The notes below the pieces were generated by a model. That model was not told the DNA's origin. It ran no database searches and saw only the letters and a program-made list of their open reading frames with translations. Of a stretch of DNA of 35,316 nucleotides, positions 1,012-28,913 are shown piece after piece. Numbering within the stretch: position 1 is the first letter of the stretch; every line of letters begins with the position of its first letter. The position numbers and the translations under genes are program-made. The DNA is from Planctomycetes bacterium GWC2_45_44 (GTDB lineage Bacteria > Planctomycetota > Phycisphaerae > Sedimentisphaerales > UBA12454): positions 1 to 35,316 of the forward strand of contig MHXU01000179.1 in the NCBI GenBank assembly GCA_001824555.1. The letters run 5' to 3'.

Positions 1012-1341
1012 TAGCAAAACTTTCTTACTTCATACTTTACAAAACTATGCGTCGGCACATGACTGATTACGAAGATTTAAGCGTGCAAAGGCACCTTGTT
1101 GCCAGGATGCGAACAACAACTCCACTAACTCGCATATAGCGGCAGCGTTATGCCTATACTTTTTTTGAACGGCTGCATTATACACCAACGGCGTAGTGGC
1201 CATATCATCCAAAATTCCCGGTAAGAACAATTGTCGCTAATCAGATTTAACACAAGTCAAACTACGGCCAGCCCGGTAAACCTACCCAACTGCCACACCC
1301 AGTGCTATAAAAAAATCTGATTATCATACTCAATCAACTAT

Positions 1342-2739: not shown

Positions 2740-2854
2740 CTTTACGCTTTTAAATTGGCATTTCCATTAAATGTTTGGTTATGCAACCAACTATCGTCAT
2801 GACCGGTTTCCGTTAATTAATGTTTTCTATAGAGCACAATCTCAGATTTTATAA

Positions 2855-4695: not shown

Positions 4696-5787
4696 TCAAA
4701 AAGAATAAAAGGAATCATCCTTCTGCAGCGGCAACTGTACAGGCACATTGATGGCCACGGATTTATACAATGCGCGAGCTAGTTCTACTTGAGAACGAAA
4801 TGATTCGCATGGAAATAGCGGCTCCTTACCAGCTTTGATCGCATCTATCCAATCTCGTAATTGACTAGCCCAACCGTCACATGGCCCGGAGCTTTCTAAC
4901 GAAAGCTTCTCGTTAAGTTCATATGTAAAATCCTCATTATCCGATTTCACCGACCATTCGGGTATAACAGTTAAAACGGCCTTTGTTGCCAGGATTTCGA
5001 TTTGATAGAAGGGGGAGCGTAGCACTCCAGGTGGCGCTAAACCCATGAGAAACATCTGGCCGATAGCGCCATTGGAAAAATTTAAAGTTGCCGAGGCACA
5101 GTCTTCGACTTCGCTCCCATGACTAAAGGACTCCATTTTACCATAAACTTCATGTACGTCACCCATCAACCAGAGAAAAGTATCAATGGCATAGCGACCG
5201 GCATGAAATAATATTCCCCCGCCAGAACCTTGCTTGCTTAGTCTCCAATGGACATGAGCTATGTGATCTTCCGGTCTCAGCCCACTAGGTGCTATAAAAT
5301 CCATTTTCGCCATGAGAACTTTTCCAAGCAGCCCATCGCTCAATGTTTTTTTAGCCATGTAAACATTTTTATTGAATCGATTTGTATGCTGAACTGTAAA
5401 CCTGATTCTTTGTGATCGCGCTGTTGCAATCATTGCATCGCACTGTTCAAGATCCACCGCCATAGGGCCTTCACAGAATACATGTTTACCCGCTTTCGCC
5501 GCAGCTATCATGGGCTGAGCATGCGCAGGCGGAGGAGTGCACACAGTGACAGCATCAATAGCGGGAAAACGTACCATTTCATGATAATCCGTATAGATAG
5601 CAATCTTCTCAGGTCTCTGCTTTTTACCATGTTCGTGAATCAACTCGACACTTTTTAGAGCATTCTCTTTATTTCTGCTACACACAGCCACCAGACGAAC
5701 ATCCGGAAACTTACACAATTCCCGTATATGATACGAGGAAAACTGACCACAACCTATAATGCCTACATTGACTGATTCCATTGACAT
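4696..5787 (-). CDS. Gfo/Idh/MocA family oxidoreductase (atypical active site)
   Basis: VNVGIIGCGQFSSYHI Rossmann motif; CTPPPAHAQPMIAAAKAGKHVFCEGPMA; GGGILFHAGRYAIDTFLWLMGDV. Confidence 0.88.
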   Translation of the reverse strand: MSMESVNVGIIGCGQFSSYHIRELCKFPDVRLVAVCSRNKENALKSVELIHEHGKKQRPEKIAIYTDYHEMVRFPAIDAVTVCTPPPAHAQPMIAAAKAGKHVFCEGPMAVDLEQCDAMIATARSQRIRFTVQHTNRFNKNVYMAKKTLSDGLLGKVLMAKMDFIAPSGLRPEDHIAHVHWRLSKQGSGGGILFHAGRYAIDTFLWLMGDVHEVYGKMESFSHGSEVEDCASATLNFSNGAIGQMFLMGLAPPGVLRSPFYQIEILATKAVLTVIPEWSVKSDNEDFTYELNEKLSLESSGPCDGWASQLRDWIDAIKAGKEPLFPCESFRSQVELARALYKSVAINVPVQLPLQKDDSFYSF

Positions 5788-5924
5788 ACTCCTATATGTA
5801 ACTGGTTTTGCGGAATACTATCAAAATCTTATTTTTTTGCACGGATTTACTTGGGAAATCCAGGACAACAGGATATCGTATAAAGGGTATACGGCAATTC
5901 GCTGGGATCAGTAATTTCTCGCGA

Positions 5925-7268
5925 TCAACCAATCGCAGGTATGTTTTTGGGTACGCTTGAAATTTCTGCCTCAATCGACTGCAGTGCCTTCTTTCTCATT
6001 CGACTTACAAAAATCAGCATTGGAATTCCTACTGCTCCGATTGCAATCCCGAACGGCATGGCTATAGCATAATTGCCGCCCGTAATATCTATCAATTTCC
6101 CACAAACTAACTGCATAGTCGCGCTGAAAGCTGCCATAAACATCCCGTTACAGGCACTGAAAGAGGCCAGTATTTCTCGGTTAACACCTTCAACCAGGAA
6201 TATAAGCAGGGCCGTATATATCATCAGTCCCCCAGTTGACATAAAAACCACACTGACGCTTAATTGCGTTGCGGTATGGGCTGGATACCCTATTACAGTG
6301 GCTATAACACACGCAGCATAGCCGATGAATACGGTTTTGAGGGCGCCGAGTTTATCGGTGAGCCACCCAGCTGGAAAAGATATTGCCAACTGCGCAGCCA
6401 TCATCCATGACATGACCCAGCCGATCTGTGTCGAATTCAAATGAACACTGTTTTTAGCATGCAGGACGATAAAAATCGGAATAGTGATTGTAGAACATAT
6501 CCCCATTCCGAAACCGGTAAACAACAGCCAGTTCTTTTTATCATTGAAACCAATTTTGAGTTGTCTTATTATACTGAATTTAGGTGGATCTTTGATCCTT
6601 ATCGGCGGTTCTTTCAGGAAGAATATTGTTGTCAGTGTCAGCCCGCCAAGCATCGCTGCGGCAAGGTAGAAAACCGGCTTTTCACCCCAAACATCCACAA
6701 GGCGCATCAGTACCACGTTGGACAGCCATAGTCCAAGCGCTCCTCCGGCCATCTGCAGCGCCCACATCCTGCCCCAGTACCGTTTAGGCGCAATATCATA
6801 CGATAAAAAAGGATATGTTTGCTCTTTGAAATTCAGAAAGAATCGATAAACGGCAAATGCGATTACGCAGGTCACAATAGTATGAGTATGAGGAAAATAT
6901 GCGAGAGCCACACAAACTGGAGGTATAGATAAAAGCAGGAAAGGCAAACGTCTTCCCCACTTTAGTTGGCAATTGTCGCTTCGAAATGCGATATAAATCA
7001 TCAACACCGAAATGATCCAGCCATTTATGGACCACCCCAGTGCTATCTGGGTGGCGTTCATTCCGATCTTGTCCATGTGAATAGGTATAAGATTGGATGC
7101 CACTCCCAGTCCCATCCCCATCCCAAACGTGCCAAATAAGAGCCAACAGGCATTGCGTATCAGCAGCTTGCTATCTCCATAATAAGCGACCACTTCAGTG
7201 CTTAATTGTACTTTTTCATCATTTCCCAAACTCATTTGCCACCCCAATTCACTGCCAAAAAAGACCAC
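5925..7268 (-). CDS. MFS transporter (possibly GPH-type sugar transporter); start may be the internal Met at about 7235
   Basis: Around 12 hydrophobic segments; MFS loop motif FPAGWLTDKLGALKTVFIGY. The 5' end overlaps the transposase remnant; MSLGNDEK is an alternative start. Confidence 0.82.
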   Translation of the reverse strand: MVFFGSELGWQMSLGNDEKVQLSTEVVAYYGDSKLLIRNACWLLFGTFGMGMGLGVASNLIPIHMDKIGMNATQIALGWSINGWIISVLMIYIAFRSDNCQLKWGRRLPFLLLSIPPVCVALAYFPHTHTIVTCVIAFAVYRFFLNFKEQTYPFLSYDIAPKRYWGRMWALQMAGGALGLWLSNVVLMRLVDVWGEKPVFYLAAAMLGGLTLTTIFFLKEPPIRIKDPPKFSIIRQLKIGFNDKKNWLLFTGFGMGICSTITIPIFIVLHAKNSVHLNSTQIGWVMSWMMAAQLAISFPAGWLTDKLGALKTVFIGYAACVIATVIGYPAHTATQLSVSVVFMSTGGLMIYTALLIFLVEGVNREILASFSACNGMFMAAFSATMQLVCGKLIDITGGNYAIAMPFGIAIGAVGIPMLIFVSRMRKKALQSIEAEISSVPKNIPAIG

Positions 7269-7522
7269 TTTCGGCAGACAACTTCCAATCCTTGGGCCGT
7301 TACTATTTTAAACCTTTTCACAATGGGCACCGCTTTCAATAAACTAAAACTCATTTTCCAGTTATACACTATCGCATACAAACCCAAATCGAATCCGTTA
7401 CAACTTAACCCTCGATAACAAGTTCTTTTATAGCCGACATTTTTTATCCAGGCAAATAGATGTTCAACCACTGCCCGAACGCCTGCCACAAGATGGTTCT
7501 CAAACTCTTTCATTTTAAACAC
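7232..7522 (-). mobile_element. Remnant of an IS5-like transposase (C-terminal part only)
   Basis: HLVAGVRAVVEHLFAWIKNVGYKRTCYRGLSCNGFDLGLYAIVYNWKMSFSLL matches the C-terminus of IS5-type DDE transposases. An in-frame stop lies just upstream of the first ATG and no DDE domain is present. Confidence 0.65.
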
Positions 7523-7548
7523 CTATCCATAAAAACTATCCCAAACAT

Positions 7549-8805
7549 CTAAATATCATCCCTCAATCGCGAACAATGTTGTTTATACTGTTTAGCGAAA
7601 TATGCCCAATTTTCCCATGGAATAGGCGGAATACTATGATCCAACATAGGCCAATAGCGTCCTTTCTTATAAGCAGTAATAAAACGCCGTTCAAGTTCCT
7701 CGTCGATTTCAACCGGACCTTGACTAAGTACTCTCTTGTCTATGCCGCCGAATAAAAATAACTCAGGGAAAGCTTCACGACATTTAGCGGCATCCATGCC
7801 AGATTGAACCTCTAAAGGAAGAAACATATTAACGCCGCATTTTAATAATTCAGGAATAAGTGTCATCGCATTCCCATCAGAATCAACACTAAGAACAGAA
7901 ACACCATTCTGTTTAAAAAAGCCAATAAGCTCGGTATAAATAGGTGATAAAAACTCCTTGAAAATATCAGGGGAAATAAGGGGACCAACTTTATAACACA
8001 TGTCTTCAAAAAAATGAACACGCCTAACCACACTGCCATATTTGGCAAAAAAAGATCCCCACAGTGTCACCCAAAATTTTAGCATGTCTGAAAGTATTAT
8101 ACGGATTAACTCTGGATTATCATAAAACATATACATCAAAGGTTCGGCCCCTATCAAATGCCGCAACATCCCATAAGTCCCCAAGAAAGGGCAATTACCG
8201 ACTTCGCCCTTCTCAAGTATTTGAACGGTATTTTTGTCAATTCTTTTCAATTTTTCTCGCCATTCCGAGGACAATCGCTTTTCCATATTTGGACAAAAAC
8301 GCTGTTCGTATATTATCTTCCAAGAATGTATGTCTTTTACAGGATGTTTGAGCCAATGAGACATGCTGTTTGCCATTCCAGCATTTTCAAAATGGCCTTT
8401 AGTTTTTTTGAAATCGTCCAATAGTGCCTTTTGTACTACACCCGTATCATCTTGAAAGACAACGTAATTATCATCTTGTTCAAAAATTTCTACGTCAAAC
8501 GCCGGGGCCAAACCTAAAAATATTGGACATGAATAATCTGCCATCAATTGTGCATCTAAGCCTACTTTATCACACGGATCTTGTCCGAAAGCTAAATGTC
8601 CTTCTTTCTCCCATATCTCGATTGTTTTCGACCAAAAACCGGGGCGACACGCCGGAATAGCACATGGCAAATCCCCATTAAACCACGAATGATAAAATTC
8701 AGAATCAAATCGTGCTTCTCTTTTATTATTATGGCTAATAAGGCTCATCTGTTTTTTGTTATCCTTCATATTCATTCTTTCGTTACCCTTCATACTCATT
8801 GTCAC
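7549..8805 (-). CDS. URO-D superfamily protein lacking the HxC metal motif
   Basis: FNGDLPCAIPACRPGFWSKTIEIWEKEGHL; VLSVDSDGNAMTLIPELLKCGVNMFLPLEVQSGMD; LFGGIDKRVL; YWPMLDHSIPPIPWENW. Confidence 0.78.
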   Translation of the reverse strand: MTMSMKGNERMNMKDNKKQMSLISHNNKREARFDSEFYHSWFNGDLPCAIPACRPGFWSKTIEIWEKEGHLAFGQDPCDKVGLDAQLMADYSCPIFLGLAPAFDVEIFEQDDNYVVFQDDTGVVQKALLDDFKKTKGHFENAGMANSMSHWLKHPVKDIHSWKIIYEQRFCPNMEKRLSSEWREKLKRIDKNTVQILEKGEVGNCPFLGTYGMLRHLIGAEPLMYMFYDNPELIRIILSDMLKFWVTLWGSFFAKYGSVVRRVHFFEDMCYKVGPLISPDIFKEFLSPIYTELIGFFKQNGVSVLSVDSDGNAMTLIPELLKCGVNMFLPLEVQSGMDAAKCREAFPELFLFGGIDKRVLSQGPVEIDEELERRFITAYKKGRYWPMLDHSIPPIPWENWAYFAKQYKQHCSRLRDDI

Positions 8806-10605: not shown

Positions 10606-11985
10606 TTAATTACTCACTCTCTGAGCCTCTTCTTTAGTAATTCTGCACCACTCTACAACATTTCCTGGTTGATTACCTATGGTATGATTATCTTTCATAA
10701 TTACTTCAACAACACACCCCTTTGTCAGTTCAAGTGCTCTTCGCAATTCCGCTCTTATAGCTTCTCTATCAATTTCAGGAGAAGCGATAGCAACTGGATT
10801 TACCTTAATGGAGCAAATGTAATTATTTCCAAGGTTCCGGGCCATTTGTTCCAAATTTGCCCAAGGCGAACACGACACGCGCCTTAAATTAGCATGATTT
10901 CTCACTGCATTCCAGCGTTTTTCCAGTGGCTCGCAACAACCATAACAGTTTAAACCAAATCTGTCCAGAATCGGTTTCTCATACGGGAAAACGAATTCTT
11001 CGTACATCTGCGGCGAAACCTGTACAGTTTCCTGGCTTTCAGCAAATCCCCACATATCTCTGCATCTTACGATTCCATCAAAATCAGCATGAGGAAGCTG
11101 CTCGGAGAAGCCATATCCACCAGAACCAACATATGTGCCATCATTATTCAAACTGAGCAGATTGTGCTTTTCAAGATAATCCAATTTGTCCATTTGTCCT
11201 TTGGATATTATGGCAAGCAATTCTTTCACAGCAACAGGGTTTTCGATAAAATCATAGAACAGATTTGTAAGGCCTCTGAGCATTGCGGCAGGCAATGTGA
11301 GTCCCAACGACCACCACCAAATGCCTTTAAGCCGCACATGCAAAATGCTATCAAAAAGTTCGTGGGCAAGTTTCATACAGCCATTTGTGGTTTCCCAATC
11401 AATTTCTATTTTAGGGCTATGCAGCTTACCAAGGTCGGTTGCATAATCCTTGATCGGATTTTCCCAACTAAAAGAGCCTGCAGTTTCGGTTTTATGAAAA
11501 ACTGTTTTCAATCCCCAGCCGTCTGGAGAGGCGGTATAAGGCACATCAAAATATGGTTCAACAGGCTTGTCATCACCCATATATTCGCCCCAGAAAATCT
11601 CTTTACGAAAATTCATCTCCCAGCGGCGAGCCAATTTGCCTTGGCATTTCATTTGTGCTTCAGTGATTATTTCGTTCCATCCATTCTCTGGATCACACAA
11701 GATAACCGGCCGTACTCTTTCAAGATTATTAAGTTTCGTCCAAAGTTCCCGTGTTCTGGCCATTTTTGAACTGGCAGCAATTTCAGCTACCTGTAACGCA
11801 AGCTCACGAAGAACTTTCATTTCGGATTCTGATATGACTATGTCCGATTTAGCTAATCCAGTTTGTATTTTGCCTAAAGCTGTTTGATCCAGACCTGTTG
11901 ATGGGCCATTCCCAAAATTGAAGCTTTTCGTTGGCTTCTTAATTGGACATACTTCTGTTTTCACTTTTATTTGATACTCTAACAT
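10606..11985 (-). CDS. URO-D-like superfamily protein of the GCCEPL subtype
   Basis: FGLNCYGCCEPLEKRWNAVRNHANLRRVSCSPWANLEQMARNLG and VVEVIMKDNHTIGNQPGNVVEWCRITKEEA fit a divergent URO-D-fold family. Confidence 0.6.
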   Translation of the reverse strand: MLEYQIKVKTEVCPIKKPTKSFNFGNGPSTGLDQTALGKIQTGLAKSDIVISESEMKVLRELALQVAEIAASSKMARTRELWTKLNNLERVRPVILCDPENGWNEIITEAQMKCQGKLARRWEMNFRKEIFWGEYMGDDKPVEPYFDVPYTASPDGWGLKTVFHKTETAGSFSWENPIKDYATDLGKLHSPKIEIDWETTNGCMKLAHELFDSILHVRLKGIWWWSLGLTLPAAMLRGLTNLFYDFIENPVAVKELLAIISKGQMDKLDYLEKHNLLSLNNDGTYVGSGGYGFSEQLPHADFDGIVRCRDMWGFAESQETVQVSPQMYEEFVFPYEKPILDRFGLNCYGCCEPLEKRWNAVRNHANLRRVSCSPWANLEQMARNLGNNYICSIKVNPVAIASPEIDREAIRAELRRALELTKGCVVEVIMKDNHTIGNQPGNVVEWCRITKEEAQRVSN

Positions 11986-14205: not shown

Positions 14206-16893
14206 TTATTTCGGGTTGGTTTTGCGAGGGTCCACCCGCATAGGGGTGCCGTCAACCGACAGTTTAATAAATGGACCAATGACCAACTTGTCAGTGGTGC
14301 GCTGTTGGCCATAAAAATCTTCGGTGAGCAATTCCACAAACGGTGCAACTTCGGGGACTGTGGGCCAAAAAGCATTCTCAAAGAGCGGCAGAGTTGTCCC
14401 CGGTGTTGCTTTCACAGTCAATTCGAGTTTCTGCATATCGAACTGGAATTCCAGAGGAATCAATACGGAGTCAGTGTCTTGTCCAGCGTTCTTCCACCCG
14501 GCAAAATCCTTTCCCATTTGGATTGGGTTGGCGACCCAGGCAACATGGAACCACTGGTCAGCAGTAGACGAACCGTTTGGTGCATTCACCTCCACGAGGG
14601 ACTGAACATTAATGCCAGAGGCTGTCGTCCTCATTTGAATGCTCCCGTTAGTTTTTGATGGCCAGTCGTAAGAGAAAATATCTCCATTTGATGCCGGGGC
14701 ATCTTTTTTGACCCATGCAGTAATTGTTACACCACTTGTCAACCATCCTGGACCATCATAAGCAGGTAAATCAACATAACCACCATTAAGGTCAAGATAG
14801 CATGGACTACCATCTGGACCACCAGCTGCGATTACAACGCTGCCAACCGCATTACCATTTCTTGGTAATGTTCCAGAATCGCTGTAATTGGTATCAAAAG
14901 TATAATGTGATATCAAATTGGCATCATTTGGCTTAGCACCAGCAATAATTGTTGTACGACCACCACCGCCAGCCAAATAACTAATCTCTGACTCAGATAA
15001 AACAGTCTTATAAATCCGCAAATCATCAATACCGCCACGAAAAATATTGCCTCCGTTCTGTGAGCCTATCGCAGCATCACCCCCCATGTTTTTAAAGAGA
15101 TTGCCCGGATAAGCCAGCCAAGACATAGATGTTTGACCAGCCATAACGCCATTTATGTAAATTTTATGCGTTGCAAGGGGCTTCTCTACTTGGAAAGCAT
15201 CGGTTTGATTCACATTCAGTCCGGACCATAAATTGTAGTTACTTCGACTTGTGAGGTTCGGCACAACAATTCCTTTGGCAAAGCCTGCGAATATGTTGCC
15301 TAAAATGCAATGGTTGTTTTCCCATCCCGCAGGTTCCGGGCTGCGTCCATGGTCGCCATAGAGCTTGATCGCATAGTCACTACCGTTCAGGAAAAGATTT
15401 TGCACCATCAGCACCTCCCCGGTGTTGTTGGTGTACACCGCGTTGTAACCGCCATTGATTAACAGATTGTTGTCCACCAGTACCGGGCCGGGGCTGACTT
15501 CGACGAAGAGATGGCCTAATTGGAGATCTCTCGGCGGATCGTTGGCCAGCAGATTCTGTGTGATACGGATGTTTTTGTTGAAACCATCCACCCACAATGA
15601 GCCACCATATTTACTGTCGAGAATGATGTTACGCCGAATGACAGAGTTTACCAGTTGGTGCAATTTTACGCCCGCTGATTCCCAGTGCTCGGTTACCGGC
15701 ATCCAACTGCAGTTTGTGAATATGTTATCCTCTATGAGCAGACCCACGTTGTCGATACCGTGCCACGCTGAAAGACCCGATATGCCGCAGTCATGCACAT
15801 TGTTGCGGCGAAAAATGTGAAATCCTGACGTTGTTCTGGAGGGATCCCACCTCTCATTGGGAGGATACCACCACTGATTTCCAATGTCTGCTCCGAGCGT
15901 GTTGGCATATCCAATTTCGCAATCCTCAATTATCCAATGGTGGCCTCGCATGGCACTGATCAGTCCACGTTGCGGTTTCGGAATTGGTACACCGTTTGCA
16001 GCGTGAAGCATATGCAGACCCTTCACGCGGATATAGCCTAAATATTCCGTCTTCGGTGCAAACACCTGTTCTCGCGTGGTAATCTCCCATGTATGGATGT
16101 TTGGGTCGTCGTTTGGATCGGGCAGGCGGAGATATATGGTCATGCCATTGTCCTCGACCCAGAAGCTTACGTTTTCATCCCTAAGCAAACTTGCATCTCC
16201 TACCTGTAACAGTGGTTTTCCGTCCATGAATATCTGGCCTCGCCGCAGTTCAAAGGTGGGGAGTAAATCTACCTTCCATCCAGGGTTACTCAGATGCGGC
16301 CAGTTCTGTAGACAAAATGGATTGGCGCCTTCGAACATTTGTCCGCTAAGCTCTGTTTTCCAGATTGCGACAGTGGGAGATGTTTTTGGGTACGTCGCCT
16401 GCCACCGTTTGTCTATTAACTGCCAGGAAACAGAAGTTTGGCCCGACAGCAGCTCGGTGTTCTTTTCCCAACATGGCTTCCAAACATCTGAGCCTTTAAT
16501 AACGACTTCCTCGTTCGGCGCAGCTTCGTAGGAAATCATTCGGTCCGGCCCTGTGCCTCCGCGTGCTGGGCGAACCCACTCGCGATAGATGCCACGATGA
16601 ATTATGACCCGCTCGCCGGGTTGAAGCGTAGCAGCCGCTTTGGCGATTGTTTTCCAAGGGCGATTCTCAGTACCGGGATTGTCGTCTGCTGCCGCCTGGT
16701 GCTGCTGGGCCACATGGAACGTGCGTGTAAACTTGGGCGAGACTTCCCACATGTGAAATAGTGTTCCGTCAGGCAGACGAACTGACTCGCTGGCTGCATA
16801 TGTGGCAGCAAACGAAAATAAAACCAGGAGATTTCCGGTGAGTAAGATGAGAAAAAATGGGATTCCCATGGGTCTATTATATTGAAATTTCAT
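14206..16893 (-). CDS. Secreted right-handed beta-helix protein with an inserted LamG (laminin-G/concanavalin-like) module in permuted order
   Basis: Signal peptide FFLILLTGNLLVLFSFAATYAASE; NRPWKTIAKAAATLQPGERVIIHRGIYREWVRP and repeated N.I..N/NNLL coils; LamG motifs GGIDDLRIYKTVLSESEI and LISHYTFDTNYSDSG...WVKKD. Confidence 0.8.
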   Translation of the reverse strand: MKFQYNRPMGIPFFLILLTGNLLVLFSFAATYAASESVRLPDGTLFHMWEVSPKFTRTFHVAQQHQAAADDNPGTENRPWKTIAKAAATLQPGERVIIHRGIYREWVRPARGGTGPDRMISYEAAPNEEVVIKGSDVWKPCWEKNTELLSGQTSVSWQLIDKRWQATYPKTSPTVAIWKTELSGQMFEGANPFCLQNWPHLSNPGWKVDLLPTFELRRGQIFMDGKPLLQVGDASLLRDENVSFWVEDNGMTIYLRLPDPNDDPNIHTWEITTREQVFAPKTEYLGYIRVKGLHMLHAANGVPIPKPQRGLISAMRGHHWIIEDCEIGYANTLGADIGNQWWYPPNERWDPSRTTSGFHIFRRNNVHDCGISGLSAWHGIDNVGLLIEDNIFTNCSWMPVTEHWESAGVKLHQLVNSVIRRNIILDSKYGGSLWVDGFNKNIRITQNLLANDPPRDLQLGHLFVEVSPGPVLVDNNLLINGGYNAVYTNNTGEVLMVQNLFLNGSDYAIKLYGDHGRSPEPAGWENNHCILGNIFAGFAKGIVVPNLTSRSNYNLWSGLNVNQTDAFQVEKPLATHKIYINGVMAGQTSMSWLAYPGNLFKNMGGDAAIGSQNGGNIFRGGIDDLRIYKTVLSESEISYLAGGGGRTTIIAGAKPNDANLISHYTFDTNYSDSGTLPRNGNAVGSVVIAAGGPDGSPCYLDLNGGYVDLPAYDGPGWLTSGVTITAWVKKDAPASNGDIFSYDWPSKTNGSIQMRTTASGINVQSLVEVNAPNGSSTADQWFHVAWVANPIQMGKDFAGWKNAGQDTDSVLIPLEFQFDMQKLELTVKATPGTTLPLFENAFWPTVPEVAPFVELLTEDFYGQQRTTDKLVIGPFIKLSVDGTPMRVDPRKTNPK

Positions 16894-17052: not shown

Positions 17053-19986
17053 TTAAAATCCGCTGTTTAGCGTTTGAGTGTTTACCCATTTTATGTCGGC
17101 ATATTCTTCGTCTTGATTTTTATAACAACCGTCCAACACAACTTTTGCATCAGTACCGACAGATGCAATAAGTTTTTTTATCTCCTCAGAAAAACTGCCT
17201 GAAGAAACCGGTAAATGCACATCATACATCTGGCAATGTATATCTCTAATTGGTGATGATATCAATAGCAAGTTAAGCTTTGCATTGGACGGTATTATTG
17301 CCGGAGTTTCTTTCTCCATCATAATCGTATGAGAAGTATTAACGGCTAAGTAAAGATTCTCAATATTAAGATGGTTTATAAAATCTGACATCTGTTGCAA
17401 ATATCCATAGTATTTATATGGGTGACATTGCAGATGGATGTTTATTCCTTTGTCCATAGCCATATCACAAAGTTGCCTGACATTTTCCGCAAGGCGCTGT
17501 GATATTAATTCATCGGTCATCCTATTTTGGGGTTTGCGATGCAGCGAAAACAAAGCATTTGACGCATTGCAATGTGCCATTAAATCAAAAACGTGTGATA
17601 TTTTTGTAAGTGTATGTTCATATCTGGTTTTAATATTGTCAACCAAAGTCAAATCTGGATAAAAGTTCATATTGGAAGAAAAATCAACAATAATATCAAC
17701 TTTTTGACGTTTAAGCCACAACGCTTCTTCCTTGGTAAATTCAACTGCTTTGTCCGCAAAATATTTCCAATCAACCTTAATGCCGCAGAAGTGCTCAAAG
17801 AATGTTTCACGCAGTAGTATTTGCTCTTTTAGAGTCCTATCGTTTTGAACCGATAAATATAGTTTGCCTGAAGCTTCTAAGGGGGTTGGAGAAGGGAGCA
17901 GGTGTAGTTGCTCATCTCTGAGTGTAATATCAAAAAGTCTTACATTCATTCCGGATATTACACTGTTTGTATCAGAACAGATAGCTTCTACTGAAAATCC
18001 AGCAGGCAAATAACCGGGTTCATGATGTTCGTTATCATTTATTTCGAGTTCTTTTAATTTTTCTATTTGGCCAATAAAACTGTTAATCTTAAACGATTGC
18101 GGATTAAGAGAATTATTAAAAATTCCTATTCTATAATTAAGTTTGTCTCGCCTGCATACGATAAAGCATAGTTCTGTATTGCTCACATCAAAAAGCTTTA
18201 ATTCTTCCAGTATGCTTTCAAAAACCATTTTGACATGCTTGAGTAGCGGATACGGGTTTACCAGAGGTTGCTCAAGAGTTCTGCCATTAAAGGAACCATC
18301 GCCGCTATTCTCAACAGCATCTTGTGCCAGACCATAGTCCGACAACACAACAGTCATGATGCCCTTGCCGTAGTGTTTTTCGACAACCAACGGAATTCCA
18401 GCACAATCGGCAATAACATCGCAATTATCCGTTGAGAGACTGCGGATATTAAAATTGTAATCTTCCTGTACAGTTTGTTCATGAACGGTTACAGCTTGAC
18501 TCTTTTGAACCTGCAAAATTTGTTCATTAACCATTACACCACACAGACCATCTTTAAATTTCAATAGGTTTCCAGCACTTATTACTACCCTTTTGCCGCT
18601 TTCAATAAAACGTTGCAATTTATCTTTAAGTTCTTGCGAAGCACTAATATCCGTAGAGATAATAATTGTCGAATACTTAGATAGAGATTGCAAATGGGCA
18701 TCGCTAAAAATCACTTCGGCAATATCACCAAACGGTGTTGGGCTCATATAGCCCCTTTCATCGCGATAATAAGAAGAATCTTCATATCCCGGATAAACGA
18801 GAGAGAACACATTATGAGACAGGTAATCACCATGCGAATAAGGCACATTACCCCAGACCTGATATAATTTCTCTACATAAAGATGCCTGGGTACCGTCCA
18901 ACCTGAGTAGAAATCAAACAATAATCCCAGCGGTGCATACATCACACCCGGCACGCCGTATTTGTCCACAAACTTAACCGCTCCGGCCTGAATTTTGCCA
19001 ATTGGACTTAAAACACGGGTTTCAGGTGCATACTCCAATGGTACAGGTTCGCAAAGAATTCTTTTTTCTGTATTTTCACCAAGCATCCAACTTTGTTCAA
19101 AACCAATTATTGCGCAGTTGTACAAATAATGTGAATACAATAATCGCCTCAACAGTGATAAGGATGTCCCACACCATGGGCCCATACTGTAGCTATCTCC
19201 GCTGGAAGGATCTTCGTACTTTTGATCTTTTTCAACACTATAATTTTTATAACCCCATCTGCTCCATACCGAAGCATTACCAAACCACAAAACACCATAT
19301 TGTTTGCCTGCCCCGCGTATGAAAGAGTAGAATATTTGTGAGCTTATGAGTCCCTGTGCAGTTTCTGCCCCGAGCAGCATGGTGTTACCTTCTTTTAAGA
19401 AGTAATGACCAAAAGTAAGTGATATCAAAGCAGAGAGTTTATTGCCAAGGTCATTACCCATCACTTCAAAAAAACGGTGAAAATTCAAATATGCCTTTTG
19501 CCTGTCAGATGCGGCACAACACTGTGCGGCATATAAGCCAATGTATCTTCCATCTTGTTCGCCATTGTCGATGCCAAGAAAAAATTCACCTAAAGCTTCT
19601 TCAAGGTATTCAACACAGCCAGACGGCGGAATAAAGTGGCTCCCGCCCCGCATTCCAGGATCGGTCTCAGTTCCGGGAACGTGCCCCCAAACATCGAATA
19701 AGTATAGTTTTCTTTTTTTGATTTCCTCAACAAAATCTTTAAAATTATCTGCATATAACGTCCTAAAGAAAGGCCAAATAACATTGCCGAGCGGGAATTG
19801 TTTTGTGTATAAATCTAAATCTCCCTTAAAATTCAGCAGTTGCCTATCTTTCTCGGCAAAGAGCCGTAAGGTCATAAACTGCGTTTTGTCGTCAAAAGTC
19901 TGCCAAGAGGGAACTTTTACACATCGCCTGTCAAAATCACTGTAAGTTCGCGGGTCTGTGAGATACGGGTATATGCTTTTTTGCAC
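17053..19986 (-). CDS. Large cytoplasmic hydrolase-like protein with a C-terminal xylose-isomerase-like (AP-endonuclease-2-like) TIM barrel; GTG start
   Basis: N-terminal barrel-like segments (LFDVWGHVPGTETD, FLGIDNGEQDGRYIG, LGAETAQGL); middle Rossmann-like segment (YSTIIISTDISASQELKDKLQRFIESGKRVVISAGN); C-terminal LAENVRQLCDMAMDKGINIHLQCHP and IENLYLAVNTSHTIM. Confidence 0.6.
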   Translation of the reverse strand: MQKSIYPYLTDPRTYSDFDRRCVKVPSWQTFDDKTQFMTLRLFAEKDRQLLNFKGDLDLYTKQFPLGNVIWPFFRTLYADNFKDFVEEIKKRKLYLFDVWGHVPGTETDPGMRGGSHFIPPSGCVEYLEEALGEFFLGIDNGEQDGRYIGLYAAQCCAASDRQKAYLNFHRFFEVMGNDLGNKLSALISLTFGHYFLKEGNTMLLGAETAQGLISSQIFYSFIRGAGKQYGVLWFGNASVWSRWGYKNYSVEKDQKYEDPSSGDSYSMGPWCGTSLSLLRRLLYSHYLYNCAIIGFEQSWMLGENTEKRILCEPVPLEYAPETRVLSPIGKIQAGAVKFVDKYGVPGVMYAPLGLLFDFYSGWTVPRHLYVEKLYQVWGNVPYSHGDYLSHNVFSLVYPGYEDSSYYRDERGYMSPTPFGDIAEVIFSDAHLQSLSKYSTIIISTDISASQELKDKLQRFIESGKRVVISAGNLLKFKDGLCGVMVNEQILQVQKSQAVTVHEQTVQEDYNFNIRSLSTDNCDVIADCAGIPLVVEKHYGKGIMTVVLSDYGLAQDAVENSGDGSFNGRTLEQPLVNPYPLLKHVKMVFESILEELKLFDVSNTELCFIVCRRDKLNYRIGIFNNSLNPQSFKINSFIGQIEKLKELEINDNEHHEPGYLPAGFSVEAICSDTNSVISGMNVRLFDITLRDEQLHLLPSPTPLEASGKLYLSVQNDRTLKEQILLRETFFEHFCGIKVDWKYFADKAVEFTKEEALWLKRQKVDIIVDFSSNMNFYPDLTLVDNIKTRYEHTLTKISHVFDLMAHCNASNALFSLHRKPQNRMTDELISQRLAENVRQLCDMAMDKGINIHLQCHPYKYYGYLQQMSDFINHLNIENLYLAVNTSHTIMMEKETPAIIPSNAKLNLLLISSPIRDIHCQMYDVHLPVSSGSFSEEIKKLIASVGTDAKVVLDGCYKNQDEEYADIKWVNTQTLNSGF

Positions 19987-21486
19987 AGTAAAAACCTTTC
20001 AATTATTGATAACCTGCTTTCGCCTCGATATGAATCGGCTCATTTGTTCGGTTCAATATTAGCAATTTAAATAAAACTTATTTTTTATCAATATCCGATT
20101 TTTTAAATTGTATATAAAGCGGTTCTTCAGTTAGCTTTATCATCATTTTCCGTCCAAATCCTGGATGCAGTCCATAGTCTGTTATCATCGCAGTTGGTAC
20201 AACTTTCTCTTTTCCTTTCATGTCCTGCATATTTATTGGAATACCTGGTATTTGAACAGCTGAGATATGTTCGGCAGATGTAGTCCACGTTACTATAGTT
20301 ACCTTTTCATCATTTTCAAATACGAGCACGTAGTCATCAACAAATCGCTGCCACGCATCCACACTGCCTGCCGAAAGAGTATCACAAAACTTCATACCGG
20401 CAAGCTGCTCTGTCAGAGTCTTAATTGCATAATATGCAGCTTTCGGCTTACGCTCGTGCGTAATTACTCCATAGCTTGCCTCAGACGATTCCTGCGGATT
20501 TTCATATTCCAGATTTGTATAAACAATATGCATTGGCATACCAGCCACAATATCGACAAGTATTGAACGTATTATCAAAGCAGCTTGTTTATCCTCGGTA
20601 CGCATTATACCACCCACCGGCGTAGGAAGTAACTGAGGGAAACCCATCTCACTCGTTACAAAGAACATCGGCTTGTCAAGCTTAGCGGAGTAGCCGCTAA
20701 CCAGACTCTTAAGCTGCAAATATCGTATAAAATTTTGCTCGGGAACTTCACAATATCCATGCACACTAACGGCATCAATCTGGTTTAACAGCCCCTGCTC
20801 TAAACACAATTTAAGAAATTTTATGTCGACACCTGCAGTATTCGGGGCAATAATATTGCAGTTGGGATCAGCCTTTCTCATAGCTGTAACTGCTGATATT
20901 AACGCCTGCATGTACTCATTGGCATCAGAAAGTGGAGACCAGAAAACATCTGTATTAGGTTCGTTCCACATCTCCCAAATCACACCTTTGCCTTTAGATT
21001 CAGACACTGCTCGTGCGCAAAATTCTGCAAATTTTTGCCGGCCTTCAGCTGTCTTCACGCTCTGATGTTCTTCATACTGAGGATGTGCAAAACTTAAAAG
21101 AGTTAAGGTACGGAGTCCACGTTTTTCGGCCGCATCAAGAAGCATATGGTATGGCTGTAAATCATATTCCCACTTGGATTTGTCAACCCAGCGCCATTGG
21201 ACATCGATCCTCACAATTTTCAAACCCATCTCTTTAATCTGGTCCATTTGAGACTCGAAGTACCCGATGTTTTCCTTAGTAGGATTTAGGAAATGCACAC
21301 TTATTCCAAGTCCATCTACAATCGTTTCAGGGGGCCATGCCGTGGAAACCAAAGAATTGTTTTGTTGGCCAATAACAACAGATGCGAAAATTACTAACAA
21401 TAACACACAGTAGTTTATATTAATTTTCTCAAATTTAATTTTCATTCCGGCATCCTTTCCGTGATTTAATAGAACTTTAAAAAAAT
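19976..21486 (-). repeat. Tandem duplication, copy B (downstream in transcription)
   Basis: Covers the 20078-21499 gene plus the spacer and first codons of the next gene. Highly similar to 21487-23004. Confidence 0.85.
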
Positions 21487-21499
21487 GTTTTTTTTGCAT
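20078..21499 (-). CDS. Secreted clan-A glycoside hydrolase (GH39/GH5-like); native start likely MKIKFEK near 21445
   Basis: VIWEMWNEPNTDVFW (acid/base NEP), VSVHGY, FVTSEMGFPQ (candidate nucleophile); signal peptide CVLLLVIFASVVIGQ. Confidence 0.8.
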   Translation of the reverse strand: MQKKHFFKVLLNHGKDAGMKIKFEKININYCVLLLVIFASVVIGQQNNSLVSTAWPPETIVDGLGISVHFLNPTKENIGYFESQMDQIKEMGLKIVRIDVQWRWVDKSKWEYDLQPYHMLLDAAEKRGLRTLTLLSFAHPQYEEHQSVKTAEGRQKFAEFCARAVSESKGKGVIWEMWNEPNTDVFWSPLSDANEYMQALISAVTAMRKADPNCNIIAPNTAGVDIKFLKLCLEQGLLNQIDAVSVHGYCEVPEQNFIRYLQLKSLVSGYSAKLDKPMFFVTSEMGFPQLLPTPVGGIMRTEDKQAALIIRSILVDIVAGMPMHIVYTNLEYENPQESSEASYGVITHERKPKAAYYAIKTLTEQLAGMKFCDTLSAGSVDAWQRFVDDYVLVFENDEKVTIVTWTTSAEHISAVQIPGIPINMQDMKGKEKVVPTAMITDYGLHPGFGRKMMIKLTEEPLYIQFKKSDIDKK

Positions 21500-23004
21500 A
21501 GTAAAAAACCTTTAAATTATTGAGAATCTGCTTTTGCCTCGATATGAATCGGCTCATTTACCAGTTCAATATTAGCAATTTAAATAAAACTTATTTTTTA
21601 TCAATATCCGATTTTTTAAATTGTATATAAAGCGGTTCCTCAGATAGCTTTATCATCATTCTCCGTCTAAATCCTGGACGCAGCCCGTCGCCTGTTATCA
21701 TGGCAGTCGGTACAACTTTCTCTTTTCCTTTCATGTCCTGCATACTTATTGGAATACCTGGTATTTGAACAGCCGAGATATGTTCGGTAGATGTAGTCCA
21801 CGTTACTATAGTTACCTTTTCATCATTTTCGAATACAAGCACATAGTCATCAATAAATCCTTGCCATGTATCCACTGTATCCACGCTGCATGCCGAAAGA
21901 GTACGACAAAACTTCATACCGGCAAGCTGCTCTGTCAGAGTCCTAATTGCATGGTATGCAGCTTTCGGCTTATGCTCGTGCGTAATTACTCCAAAGCTCG
22001 CCTCAGACGATTTCTGCGGATTTTCATATTCCAGATTTGTGTAGATAATATGCATTGGCATACCAGCTACAAGGTCGACAAGTATTGACCGTATTATCAA
22101 GGCAGCCTGTTTATCCTCGGTACGCATTATACCACCCACCGGCGTATCATGTAACTGAGGAAAACCCAATTCACTTGTTACAATAAGCATCGGTTTGTCA
22201 AGCTTAACGGAGTAGCTGCTAACCAGGCTCTTCAACTGTAGATATCGTACAAAATTTTGCTCGGGAATCTCACAATATCCATGCACACTAACGGCATCAA
22301 TCTGGTTTAACAGACCCTGCTTCAAACACGATTCAAGAAATTCCATATCGAGACCCCCAATATTCGGGGCAATAATATTGCAATTGGGATCAGCTTTTCT
22401 CATAGCTGTAACTGCTGAGATTAACGCCTGCATGTATTCATTGACATCAGAACATGGGGGCCAGAAATCATTTATATTAGGTTCGTTCCACATCTCCCAA
22501 ATCACGCCTTTACCTTTAAATTCAGACACTGCTCGTGCGCAAAATTCTGCAAATTTTTGCCGGTCTTCCATAGTCTTCACGCCATGAAGTTCTTCTTCAT
22601 ACTGAGGGGGTGCACATAAAAGAGCTAATACACGGAGACCACGTTTTTCGGCCGCATCAACAAGCATATGATATGGCTGTAAATCATATTCCCACTTGGA
22701 TTTGTCAATCCAGCGCCATTGGATATCGATTCTCACAATTTTCAACCCCATCTCTCTAATCTGGTCCATTTGAGATTCGAAGTACCCGATGTTTTCCACA
22801 GTGGGCTTTATGAAATGCACACTTATTCCAAGCCCATCTACAATCGTTTCAGGGGGCCATGCCGTGGAAACCAAAAAATTATTTTGCTGTCCAATAACAG
22901 CAGATGTAAAAATCACTAACAATAATACGCATTGGTTTATATTAATTTTCTGAAATTTGATTTTCATTCCGGCATCTTTTTCTTAATTTAATAGAACTTT
23001 TAAA
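21487..23004 (-). repeat. Tandem duplication, copy A
   Basis: Covers the 21591-22967 gene with matching flanks. Confidence 0.85.
21591..22967 (-). CDS. Secreted clan-A glycoside hydrolase (GH39/GH5-like), paralogue of 20078-21499
   Basis: VIWEMWNEPNINDFW, VSVHGYCEIPEQNF, IVTSELGFPQ; signal peptide CVLLLVIFTSAVIGQ. Confidence 0.8.
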   Translation of the reverse strand: MKIKFQKININQCVLLLVIFTSAVIGQQNNFLVSTAWPPETIVDGLGISVHFIKPTVENIGYFESQMDQIREMGLKIVRIDIQWRWIDKSKWEYDLQPYHMLVDAAEKRGLRVLALLCAPPQYEEELHGVKTMEDRQKFAEFCARAVSEFKGKGVIWEMWNEPNINDFWPPCSDVNEYMQALISAVTAMRKADPNCNIIAPNIGGLDMEFLESCLKQGLLNQIDAVSVHGYCEIPEQNFVRYLQLKSLVSSYSVKLDKPMLIVTSELGFPQLHDTPVGGIMRTEDKQAALIIRSILVDLVAGMPMHIIYTNLEYENPQKSSEASFGVITHEHKPKAAYHAIRTLTEQLAGMKFCRTLSACSVDTVDTWQGFIDDYVLVFENDEKVTIVTWTTSTEHISAVQIPGIPISMQDMKGKEKVVPTAMITGDGLRPGFRRRMMIKLSEEPLYIQFKKSDIDKK

Positions 23005-23058: not shown

Positions 23059-25305
23059 TTAGGGATTATAATTACACGGAGGCTTTGGATCGGTACAATC
23101 CAGCCAACCCTCTGCCAAAACAGCAAGGTCTTTGAAGTTAACTTTCTTGGAATTTATCGGCTCATTATCGGACAGGTTAGCAAGTGAATCCAACGGCACA
23201 TAGACATCTGTGCCACTGCCGGCCAAATAAGCAATCTCTTGCCCTGATAAGGCCTTATTATAAACCCGCAGATCATCAATACCGCCCATAAGGACAGAGC
23301 CGCCGCCCCATGCGCCTATTTGGACAATGTCATTCATATTTTTAAAGACGTTGGCCGGCCACGCTGCCCAAGGCATCCATGTTTCGGCAACTTTTGTGCC
23401 GTTAATCCAAACTTCGTGCATACCCGAGATTGCTCTGCCAACCCAGGCAACATGGTACCACTGGCCGGCAGCTCCATAAGGACCGGTTGCGGCATTTACA
23501 TTCACGAGAGATTGAGTATAAATACCGGCAGGTGTTGTCTGTATTTGAATGGTTCCGTTAGCGGCGGGTGAAAACCAATTCTGTGCGAAAATATATCCGT
23601 TAGATCCCGCAACATCCTGCTTAACCCATGCAGTAATTGTTACACCAGTTGTTATCCAGCCCGGGCCGGTATATACAGGTAACTCAACATAACCGCCATT
23701 AAGGTCAAGATAGCCGGTACTGCCTAATGGGCCAGCACCTGGAGTTGTATCAATCGCAGCAGAGCCATGTACTGTACCATTTCTCGGCAATGTCCCCAAA
23801 TCGTTGTAATCAGTATCAAAGGTGTAATGTGATAATAAATCAGCGTCATTAGGAGTACCACTGCCATGAATCGTATAGTCTCCCTTAAGCCAATCCACTG
23901 CCATTATCACAAGGTCGTTCATATCTGTACGACAATCTCCCGTTATATCGCCTGGCGGATAAGGGTGACCAATATCGCCGCAAACAACAATGGGGGCAAA
24001 GCGGATGTAAACAGGATGGTCGGTAATTCCAATAGTTATCCTGCCGTTGACCATTGTTGGAGTCGTCATTAATGTACCAAACTCATCCACCATCTCAAGA
24101 GGTGCGCTGGGTACCTCGAAGTCAACCGTTCTGGAATCAGGGTCGAAAGAACCGCCTATCCAGGCGGCAATAACTGCCTTGTTCTGACCGTTAAAAAGAG
24201 CCACATAATAATTAGCATTATAGGGGCTGGGTTCTACCATCTTCAAAAACTGGGTTCCGCTAAGCCGCTGCAAAAGCGTTTTCACCGAATAATATGACAG
24301 CTTAGGATGGGGACCATCTGCCGCATACATATTGCTATCGAACAAACCATATCCTTCAAAATTAGGGTTGCCCTCATCAACCCAGTCATTAAATGTATAA
24401 ATGATGCGTACCGGATGCCTGAGTACCATGTCCACAAGCACAGAGCGAGTTATATCTCTGGCCTGTTGTGCTTGAGTACGAACCAGTGTTCCATACCCCG
24501 CCCAAGATTGGCAAACCCCCAGTTCACTGCTGCCGATGGAAATTGTTCTCGGTGTAGAATAGCTGTCAACCAGTGTTCGAAGAGTTGGATAGCGAGAGGC
24601 GGTGAAATTGATTTCAGGCGATTCGCCGGGTGTAAAGTAAGGGTGTGCGCTAACAACATCGATATAGTTGAGCATGCCCTGCTGGAAACAAGTTTCAATG
24701 AAAGCGGTGGCATCAGTAATTCCGGCACTGTTTGGAGCAATGACGATACAATTAGGGTCAACGGCTTTCATCGCAGCTATAGCCATTGACATCGCGGCCA
24801 TATAATTATTAGCGATGGCTAATGGCGGCCAGAACGCATCGGTATTGGGCTCATTCCACATTTCATAAATGATACCTTTGCCTTGAAATCCGGTAACCAT
24901 CGCAACACAAAGATCCCTAAACGCCTCCCGCTCGGCCTGAGTTGCGGGAGCATGGTTGTCAGCACCGAAAGTTTTTGCGCAAAGGAGCATAACTCGCATT
25001 CCACGTCTGCCGGCCTCGTCTACAAACCATTGCAGTTCGCCAGTGGTAAAATCGACGGCAGGATCCATGGGGACACGTATTATTTTTATGCCCAAAACTT
25101 TTGCTTTATCCATATAACGGAGGTAACGAGCTGTGTTTGCGGGATGAAGCGGACCGGTGAGATGCATATTTAAACCGATACCAGCCGTAACATCTTTTCC
25201 AAGCCAGCTCGGCCAGGGTACCGTATCGGTTGGAACAGAAGCAATCAATGTACCGACAAATACTAAAATAAAAATGCCGCACAAACAATTCTTTTTACTA
25301 TTCAA
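23059..25305 (-). CDS. Secreted clan-A glycoside hydrolase with dockerin-like linker, LamG domain and dockerin-like C-terminal tail
   Basis: IIYEMWNEPNTDAFW, IGSSELGVCQ; GDITGDCRTDMNDLVIMAVDWL; LamG HYTFDTDYNDLG...GGIDDLRVYNKALS; EPINSKKVNFKDLAVLAEGWL. Confidence 0.85.
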   Translation of the reverse strand: MNSKKNCLCGIFILVFVGTLIASVPTDTVPWPSWLGKDVTAGIGLNMHLTGPLHPANTARYLRYMDKAKVLGIKIIRVPMDPAVDFTTGELQWFVDEAGRRGMRVMLLCAKTFGADNHAPATQAEREAFRDLCVAMVTGFQGKGIIYEMWNEPNTDAFWPPLAIANNYMAAMSMAIAAMKAVDPNCIVIAPNSAGITDATAFIETCFQQGMLNYIDVVSAHPYFTPGESPEINFTASRYPTLRTLVDSYSTPRTISIGSSELGVCQSWAGYGTLVRTQAQQARDITRSVLVDMVLRHPVRIIYTFNDWVDEGNPNFEGYGLFDSNMYAADGPHPKLSYYSVKTLLQRLSGTQFLKMVEPSPYNANYYVALFNGQNKAVIAAWIGGSFDPDSRTVDFEVPSAPLEMVDEFGTLMTTPTMVNGRITIGITDHPVYIRFAPIVVCGDIGHPYPPGDITGDCRTDMNDLVIMAVDWLKGDYTIHGSGTPNDADLLSHYTFDTDYNDLGTLPRNGTVHGSAAIDTTPGAGPLGSTGYLDLNGGYVELPVYTGPGWITTGVTITAWVKQDVAGSNGYIFAQNWFSPAANGTIQIQTTPAGIYTQSLVNVNAATGPYGAAGQWYHVAWVGRAISGMHEVWINGTKVAETWMPWAAWPANVFKNMNDIVQIGAWGGGSVLMGGIDDLRVYNKALSGQEIAYLAGSGTDVYVPLDSLANLSDNEPINSKKVNFKDLAVLAEGWLDCTDPKPPCNYNP

Positions 25306-25481: not shown

Positions 25482-26237
25482 CTATTTGCGACGACGCAGC
25501 AAGAGACCGCCAAGCCCAACAATAGCTAATGTGGCGGGCTCAGGTATAATCATAGAATCCGCAATCCCAGTTGCGTCCAAAGCGTCGGTATAGATACGCA
25601 GGTCAGCAATACCACCCATAAGTTGAGTGGCACCGCCCCATGCGCCTATTTGGACAACGTCAGCCATATCTTTATAGAGGTGGTTCGGCCATCCTGACCA
25701 ACCCAGCCATGTTGAGGAAACATTTACGCCGTTGATCCAAATTTCGCTCATACCCGTGACTGCTCGGCCAACCCAGGCAACATGGTACCACTCGCCGGCA
25801 TCGCCATAAGGACCGGTTGCGGCATTTACATTCACAAGAGATTGAGCATAAACACCGGCAGATGTTGTCTGTATTTGAATGGTTCCGTTAGCAGTGGGTG
25901 AAAACCAACTCTGTGCGAAAATATATCCGTTAGATCCCGCAACATCCTGCTTAACCCATGCAGTAATTGTTACACCAGTTGATACCCAGCCCGGTCCACC
26001 ATATGCAGGTAACTCAACATAACCGCCACTAAGGTCAAGATAGCCGGTAGAGCCTAATGGGCCGGCACCTGGAGTCGTATCAATCGTGGCAGCACCGACC
26101 GCATTACCAGTTCTCGGCAACGTTCCCGCATCGGTGTAATCGGTTTGAAAAGCATATTTTGATATCATATCAGCATTTACCGCGAATGACACCATTAACA
26201 GTACTGCAACACACAATAAAACACTTTTCATCTTCAT
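25482..26237 (-). CDS. Secreted single-LamG protein with PEP-CTERM sorting signal
   Basis: Signal peptide; complete LamG module; C-terminus IPEPATLAIVGLGGLLLRRRK. Confidence 0.9.
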   Translation of the reverse strand: MKMKSVLLCVAVLLMVSFAVNADMISKYAFQTDYTDAGTLPRTGNAVGAATIDTTPGAGPLGSTGYLDLSGGYVELPAYGGPGWVSTGVTITAWVKQDVAGSNGYIFAQSWFSPTANGTIQIQTTSAGVYAQSLVNVNAATGPYGDAGEWYHVAWVGRAVTGMSEIWINGVNVSSTWLGWSGWPNHLYKDMADVVQIGAWGGATQLMGGIADLRIYTDALDATGIADSMIIPEPATLAIVGLGGLLLRRRK

Positions 26238-26450: not shown

Positions 26451-28913
26451 CTAAGGAACCGCCGGCCAAAACTGGTCAACAAGCCAACTTTCTGCCAAAA
26501 CCGCAAAGTCTTTGAAATTAACTTTCTTGGAATTTATTGGCTCATCATCGGACAGGTTAGCAGGTGAATTTACCGGCACATAGACACCCGCGCCGCCACC
26601 GGCCAAATAAAGGACCTCTTGGTCTGATAAGGTTTTATTATAGATTCGTAGATCATCCATCCACCCCTTGAAGCGACGATTCGGCCCCCATTCACCAATG
26701 TCACAAGCACCATTGATATTCGCAGCAGGAGGTGTTGAGGGAGGCACAATGGAATTGCTCGGTTGACCGTTTATATAATACTGAATTAAAGTTGGTTTAA
26801 CAACAAGCGCCAGATGGAACCAGCCTCTTGATTGCGACATTGATGGCGTAACCAAGATTTGGCCGGCATAAGAACTAAGTATGTCCATATTGCCGTCACC
26901 ATTATCTCTAATGTTAGCGTATGTTACAGAATCTGGACCGAAGAAAAGTGATGTTTCACCCTGAATTAGAGTTTCCACCTTCACCCACATTGCAATCGTA
27001 AACTTTGTCAAATTATTGGGAAAAGTTGGGCTGGCAGGCAATTGAATCCCTGCATCTCCAGGAAATCTTACGTAACCGGAAGAACCGTCCGGGCCGGTGG
27101 AAGGTACAACTGCAAGAGGACCGGCACCATACTTTACTCCATTTCTTCCCACTAAACCTGAATCAATCAACGGGTCAACATCAAAGGTATAATGTGATAA
27201 TAAATTAGCATCACTGGGAGCAACACCACCAGGAATCGTGTAGTCCCCCTTAAGCCAGTCTCTTGTCATTATCGCAAGGTCTTCCATATCTGTACGACAA
27301 TTTCCCGTTATATCGCCTGCCGAAGCAAGTTCAGGAATACATCTGACAGAATACAATCTAATATCATCAATATAAACAGTCCCCGTGCCACCCTGTGCAG
27401 GATTGGTTCTGTCTCCAAAACCAATATATGCTTTCTGGATATTAGACATATTCACACCGGCCAAATGACTGAGATTGATGTGAAAAACGTGCCATCCTTC
27501 ATCGGCAATGTCATTCACATTTTCACCGTTATCTCCATATCTAACCATCGCAAAATGGGGAGTCGGTGTACTACCATCTTCGACAGCAAAGTACATCATG
27601 CCTGAAACACTATTACCTACAGTCCCGCGGAACCACAAATCCAATGACTTGACCCCACTAACCGTCCAATTTGTACCGATTTGGAGACCTGCGGTATCAG
27701 CCATTGATTCAGAATAATAAGGAGAAACACTATTGTCATAATAATATTGCATTGACTTAGCCCCACCATGTGCATTTGTAGTTCCAAGGTCAACAACCGA
27801 ACCACTGCCATTGGTGTAACCGTCAATCCATGTGTTATATATACGGGGGGTACTTAAATTGTAAGACTCCATGTCATCTACAATAAGAAAATTAGCCGTT
27901 GTAAAACTCCAAACGTTACTGCCCCATGGACTGCATGGGTCTAAGTTATTAACCTCATCAACACGCCAATAATAAGTCGTATCAATGTTGAGAGCTGTTG
28001 GCGTATAATTTGCCTCTGTAACTGATACTGGCGTAACTGTGCGATTTGCAACTTCCTGCTCAACAGTACTCAGATAGACATTATGCGTAACCACACCGGT
28101 TCCAGGTGCCCATTGAAGCAACACATCTGTCTTCACATCCCCTGCGCCATTCGCAGGAATAGGCTCAAGTGCTTTCTTCCGTACAACACCAGCAATATCT
28201 TTTATGGCAGCCTCCCCAAGAGTGTCGGTATAAACCCGCAGATCATCAATACCACCCATAAGGACAGTGCCGCCGCCCCATGCGCCTATTTGGACAACGT
28301 CATGCATAGCTTTAAAAACATGGCCCGGCCACGCTGCCCAAGGCATCCATGTTTCGGCAACTTTTTCGCCATTGATCCAAATTTCGTGCAAACCCGTGAT
28401 CGCTCTGCCAACCCAGGCAACATGGTACCACTGGCCAGCAGCACCATAAGGGCCGGTTGCGGCATTTACATTCACAAGAGATTGAGCATAAATACCGGCA
28501 GGTGTTGTCAGTATTTGAATGGTTCCGTCACTGGGTGAAAACCAATTCTGTGCGAAAATATATCCGCCTGATCCCGCAACATCCTGCTTAACCCATGCAG
28601 TAATTGTTACACCAGTTGCTGATACCCAACCCGGGCCATCGTAGGCAGGTAACTCAACATAACCACCATTAAGGTCAAGATAGCCAGTGGTGCCTAATGG
28701 GCCGGCACCTGGAGTTGCATCAATCAAGACAGAACCGTGTGCTGTACCAGTTCTCGGCAATGTTCCCGAATCGCTGTAATCTGTATCAAAGGTGTAATGT
28801 GATATCAATTCGGCATTAACACCAGATACCAAAAACAAGACCAGCACAAAACTAATTAAACAATACGTTTTCTCTGACATAACCACCTCCTTATAAAATA
28901 AAAGATTCAACAA
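26451..28913 (-). CDS. Secreted multidomain LamG/Fn3-like/carbohydrate-binding-like/dockerin-like protein without an obvious catalytic domain; likely start MSEKTYC near 28880
   Basis: SD AAGGAGGTGGTT before ATGTCAGAG; LamG #1 HYTFDTDYSDSG; Fn3-like WRVDEVNNLDPCSPWGSNVWSFTT; DDMESYN...YIDDIRLY; GDITGNCRTDMEDLAIMTRDWL; LamG #2; KKVNFKDFAVLAESWL. Confidence 0.82.
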   Translation of the reverse strand: MLNLLFYKEVVMSEKTYCLISFVLVLFLVSGVNAELISHYTFDTDYSDSGTLPRTGTAHGSVLIDATPGAGPLGTTGYLDLNGGYVELPAYDGPGWVSATGVTITAWVKQDVAGSGGYIFAQNWFSPSDGTIQILTTPAGIYAQSLVNVNAATGPYGAAGQWYHVAWVGRAITGLHEIWINGEKVAETWMPWAAWPGHVFKAMHDVVQIGAWGGGTVLMGGIDDLRVYTDTLGEAAIKDIAGVVRKKALEPIPANGAGDVKTDVLLQWAPGTGVVTHNVYLSTVEQEVANRTVTPVSVTEANYTPTALNIDTTYYWRVDEVNNLDPCSPWGSNVWSFTTANFLIVDDMESYNLSTPRIYNTWIDGYTNGSGSVVDLGTTNAHGGAKSMQYYYDNSVSPYYSESMADTAGLQIGTNWTVSGVKSLDLWFRGTVGNSVSGMMYFAVEDGSTPTPHFAMVRYGDNGENVNDIADEGWHVFHINLSHLAGVNMSNIQKAYIGFGDRTNPAQGGTGTVYIDDIRLYSVRCIPELASAGDITGNCRTDMEDLAIMTRDWLKGDYTIPGGVAPSDANLLSHYTFDVDPLIDSGLVGRNGVKYGAGPLAVVPSTGPDGSSGYVRFPGDAGIQLPASPTFPNNLTKFTIAMWVKVETLIQGETSLFFGPDSVTYANIRDNGDGNMDILSSYAGQILVTPSMSQSRGWFHLALVVKPTLIQYYINGQPSNSIVPPSTPPAANINGACDIGEWGPNRRFKGWMDDLRIYNKTLSDQEVLYLAGGGAGVYVPVNSPANLSDDEPINSKKVNFKDFAVLAESWLVDQFWPAVP

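Follow-up and report, generated by a model that had tools for sequence, protein, structure and literature searches.

Domains that are permuted in nature and lie within an enzyme are rare enough to serve as textbook cases. The swaposin, one such domain, is widespread in plants. It is a permuted saposin within plant aspartic proteinases, and it has been explained by permutation after tandem duplication (PMC3320104). Concanavalin A and favin share the broad concanavalin-like lectin fold with the LamG module and also have a permuted order (PMC3320104). In GH120 glycosidases, an Asp is the nucleophile and a Glu is the acid/base, and the right-handed beta-helix of the beta-xylosidase XylC contains an intervening Ig-like sandwich (PMC6887791). 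Laminin_G_3 (PF13385) modules are common in the order to which the bacterium described here is assigned, and some of them are tandem.

In this study, we analysed a window of 35,316 nucleotides, that is, the whole stretch of contig MHXU01000179.1 of the uncultured Planctomycetes bacterium GWC2_45_44 that was examined. In one of its genes, a LamG module has very probably been inserted, in frame and circularly permuted, into one of the loops of a beta-helix glycosidase that resembles GH120, and the likeliest donor is a fragment of a tandem pair or a circle. Like the swaposin, the insert is a permuted copy of a tandem-array domain placed in frame within an enzyme (PMC3320104). The swaposin, however, is an all-helical saposin in an aspartic protease, whereas here a LamG sandwich lies in a beta-helix glycosidase, and the permuted LamG insert was found once. 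Concanavalin A is permuted post-translationally by cleavage and ligation, whereas in the present case the permutation is encoded in the gene and the permuted domain lies within another protein.

An ORF of the minus strand, 14206-16893, encodes an 895-residue protein, a predicted GH120-like beta-helix glycosidase with the nested permuted LamG, and its frame contains no internal stops. The order in the protein is host, LamG C-terminal half, linker, LamG N-terminal half and host, all on the minus strand. The host N-terminal part (aa 1-575; 15169-16893) corresponds to the right-handed beta-helix. It is followed by the LamG C-terminal half (aa 576-645; 14959-15168), which was recognized by Pfam and a half-specific HMM. 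The 13-residue linker RTTIIAGAKPNDA (aa 646-658; 14920-14958) connects what were once the C- and N-termini of the module. The LamG N-terminal half (aa 659-787; 14533-14919), recognized by a half-specific HMM and by Pfam on the half alone, comes second, and the host C-terminal segment (aa 788-895 and the stop; 14206-14532) completes the protein.

Half-specific HMMs, which were built partly from the protein's own two halves, matched the 895-residue protein with the C-half (1e-50) first and the N-half (4e-71) second. The reversed order of the halves, which the initial annotation had read from the sequence alone, is thus confirmed, and its coordinates for the insert, 14532-15172, are correct within a few bases. 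Both halves match Laminin_G_3, but not in the canonical N-to-C order. In the full protein, Pfam gave the C-half alone (profile 92-151, E=1.8e-13); the N-half searched by itself matched profile 3-86 with E=4e-4, which is under the family gathering score. Linear profile searches can therefore miss half of a permuted domain. The two halves together have 199 residues, compared with 198-206 residues in the canonical LamGs of the contig.

The module is cut within the hairpin loop that links HVAWV to (H)xIWING, which supports the earlier placement in the WV / xIWING loop. The canonical loop reads WV-GRAISGM-HEVWING, while the permuted N-half ends with WV-ANPIQM-GKDF and the permuted C-half starts with LAT-HKIYING. 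The edge ANPIQM (14515-14532, minus strand) may come from the host or from the LamG hairpin loop, where it would correspond to GRAISGM; the DNA similarity of the insert to the LamG at 23428-23861 extends to 14521. The downstream edge of the insert is hence placed with an uncertainty of about six residues, and the host loop would be of ordinary length under either reading of ANPIQM.

Five other intact LamGs were examined on the contig, all on the minus strand, and the half-specific HMMs found N then C in 5/5, unlike in the insert. The LamG at 28188-28808 is the nearest to the insert N-half (66% identical) and has a 31-base word in common with the insert. The one at 23212-23838 is 64% identical in the N-half and is the nearest to the C-half (50%), followed by that at 33757-34359 (48%). 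The LamG at 25569-26168 belongs to a PEP-CTERM protein, and that at 26592-27203 is more distant. Trees of the separate halves were too small for deciding between one and two donor copies. The linker RTTIIAGAKPNDA is similar to linkers that precede LamGs on the contig (GTPNDAD, VAPSDAN). As a separate observation, the LamGs in 23059-25305 and 26451-28913 are flanked by two short dockerin-like repeats (GDITGDCRTDMNDLVIMAVDWL ... NSKKVNFKDLAVLAEGWL) and look as if they were set into a split repeat pair; Pfam gave no dockerin match in these two regions even at E<=10.

Relatives were searched with the host protein minus the LamG as query. Five genes, from a Phycisphaerae MAG, Kiritimatiellae, Akkermansiaceae (two genes) and Hydrogenedentota, showed host identity of 43-55%, and in every one of them the LamG is absent and the beta-helix joins the C-terminal segment directly. 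The initial annotation had taken the flanks for one interrupted host domain and had proposed this alignment as a check; the contiguous flanks in all five genes bear it out. The final alignments used trimmed fragments, as an earlier alignment had scattered C-half fragments across the beta-helix. The spacing between the conserved host residues N554 and W800 is 27-33 residues in the five fully aligned homologues versus 245 in the 895-residue protein. Removal of the 212-residue LamG from these 245 residues leaves 33, as in the homologues. Among homologues from several phyla, a host C-terminal segment could be detected in 23 ORFs, and the insert was absent in 23/23, a count that takes in some partial matches and one gene fetched twice (L011 and L074). 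The insertion is thus clean and lineage-specific. The interrupted host domain is the final part of the GH120-like right-handed beta-helix, the site itself is a variable-length loop ahead of the last conserved segment, and no target-site duplication or flanking direct repeat of at least 14 nt was found at the junctions. The Akkermansiaceae contig (7.8 kb) carries its two GH120-like host gene copies at 1092-3128 and 5655-7586.

The host profile matched XylC (PDB 3vst) with E=1.2e-50 over profile 39-489. Asp436 (15586-15588, minus strand) and Glu465 (15499-15501, minus strand) are aligned to XylC positions 382 and 405, respectively, and are invariant in the six aligned host proteins. We take XylC positions 382 and 405 to be the catalytic Asp and Glu. 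By its similarity to XylC and the retained Asp/Glu pair, the host resembles a GH120 enzyme, and it may have xylosidase-like activity. XylC differs from the host in having an Ig-like sandwich, which is not a LamG, within the helix core (PMC6887791); its aligned part contains no LamG insert. The probable role of the permuted module is that of a carbohydrate-binding domain appended close to the active-site helix.

The overall GC content is 44.0% in the insert and 50.4% and 49.5% in the two host flanks. The insert had been described as more AT-rich on the basis of two sampled lines (35% versus 63%). These values are correct (35.0% and 63.3%), but the difference over the whole insert is smaller and the main contrast lies in GC3, which is 33% in the insert versus 54.6% and 54.1% in the host (Fisher p=5e-8); the lowest GC3 in any 212-codon stretch of the host is 50.9%. 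The insert looks like a member of the contig's own LamG family, because GC3 is 35-36% in the N-halves of 4/5 other LamGs of the contig. GC3 thus marks the insert as LamG-derived and not alien to the contig. The idea of a foreign AT-rich insert was rejected on this agreement.

We propose the following origin of the permuted module. The donor DNA would most likely have spanned the boundary between two tandem LamGs, with the tail of the first and the head of the second, or would have been a circle excised from such a pair; both LamG copies would have been cut at the same hairpin loop. This piece would have entered a permissive loop of the GH120-like enzyme in an event of the swaposin type. The new termini of the LamG would be the two ends of one beta-hairpin loop and would lie side by side, so that the module could take the place of the host loop and leave the host fold undisturbed, while the old termini would be bridged by the 13-residue linker. 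A tandem-pair fragment or a circle would be the simplest donor, and the sequence here agrees equally well with a circle and with a linear fragment. In relatives of the same order, tandem LamGs (L044, L045, L046, L047 and L063) have a C-half, a short YLAG...LVxxY-type linker and an N-half following one another, for example YLAGQRATPVDPGDDGLVAFYAFE (L044) and YLAGAGDRSVPPAYGPLVAHYEFD (L045). The earlier suggestion that the module arose from the last part of a first LamG plus the beginning of a second fits these tandem LamGs with their similar linkers. They are, however, only 30-40% identical to the insert; the donor copy itself was not found, and the search for LamG relatives on plasmids gave no match. 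We infer both the donor and the glycan binding. Three traits of the swaposin type were found: in-frame nesting of a permuted domain in an enzyme, contiguous host flanks in homologues and a parent domain that occurs in tandem in relatives. In our reading, the insert is most probably the product of a natural cut-rotate-insert event of the swaposin type, a neat though precedented case of protein remodelling.

An unlikely but conceivable alternative is that a complete tandem LamG pair entered the host gene and afterwards lost its outer halves, or that a LamG was duplicated in the host and then trimmed. Permutation by duplication in place is the standard model for circular permutation (PMC3320104). 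However, there is no trace of outer LamG sequence past the hairpin, and the host loop has kept its length, so that such a course would need two exact deletions.

We infer that the two halves close into one jelly roll. The AlphaFold models of the insert alone (pLDDT 48.9, pTM 0.58) and of aa 317-895 (pLDDT 64.5, pTM 0.59) are of low confidence and too weak for judging how the halves pack, which was the check that the initial annotation had suggested. Foldseek with the insert model gave noise and found no LamG, and with the aa 317-895 model it gave weak beta-helix matches alone. Low confidence over much of the modelled insert would suit another explanation, in which the halves never form one domain but are left over from two broken LamGs and persist as a disordered insert that the protein tolerates. 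This is rather improbable, since the halves are complete and complementary, their motifs are kept, the frame is open and even the low-confidence models put strands and a helix at LamG-like places. A chimera, produced by a short-read assembler that spliced fragments of LamG genes into the host gene, is less probable still. In its favour, the assembly is a draft of 180 contigs with several similar LamGs on this one, and the 31-base word within the N-half (14771-14801) recurs in another LamG. The junctions, however, are unique: of the 80-base stretches that cover them, no more than 13 and 15 bases are repeated in other parts of the window. Save for one 60-base stretch at 77%, no other sequence of the assembly exceeds 72% identity over the insert. 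Two wrong joins would moreover have to coincide in one host loop, each of them in frame and with complementary LamG halves.

Because the empty sites, the likely donor family and insert-like linkers are all visible, the formation of a nested domain from the tail of one repeat plus the head of its neighbour can be traced in bacteria at the sequence level. A wider reading, which we consider doubtful, is that LamG modules are mobile in this lineage in the form of in-frame DNA cassettes, perhaps by way of circles excised from tandem copies. If so, the gene would record a circle integrated at the hairpin loop, and this would be a general route for the spread and permutation of surface-protein domains.

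The tetranucleotide profile of the contig has r=0.73 to the mean of 20 sampled contigs of the assembly, compared with 0.94-0.98 for most of the sampled contigs; a few of them (L104, L121, L111 and L122) are closer to the window. The contig may be mis-binned or may be an island, and the bin may mix two sources. The host query gave no match in the sampled same-genus and same-family genomes. Given these possible origins of the contig, the absence of the host gene in these supposed relatives says little about the true lineage.

Because of the Pfam families of its neighbours, which are alpha-L-rhamnosidase, a GH32-type N-terminal domain, GH5/GH39-like, acetylesterase, a sugar transporter and a LacI regulator, the gene may belong to a cluster for plant-glycan utilisation. 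The 977-residue protein at 17053-19986 has an AP-endonuclease-2/xylose-isomerase-like barrel at its C-terminal end alone (aa 772-954), and Pfam gave no match in the rest of it. Uroporphyrinogen-decarboxylase-like or methyltransferase-like genes lie among the glycosidase genes at 2855-4123, 7549-8805 and 10606-11985. Two of these three genes were scanned, and Pfam URO-D matched in 2855-4123 and not in 10606-11985. The adjacent GH39/GH5-like genes at 20078-21499 and 21591-22967 are very similar to each other and apparently reflect a recent tandem duplication.
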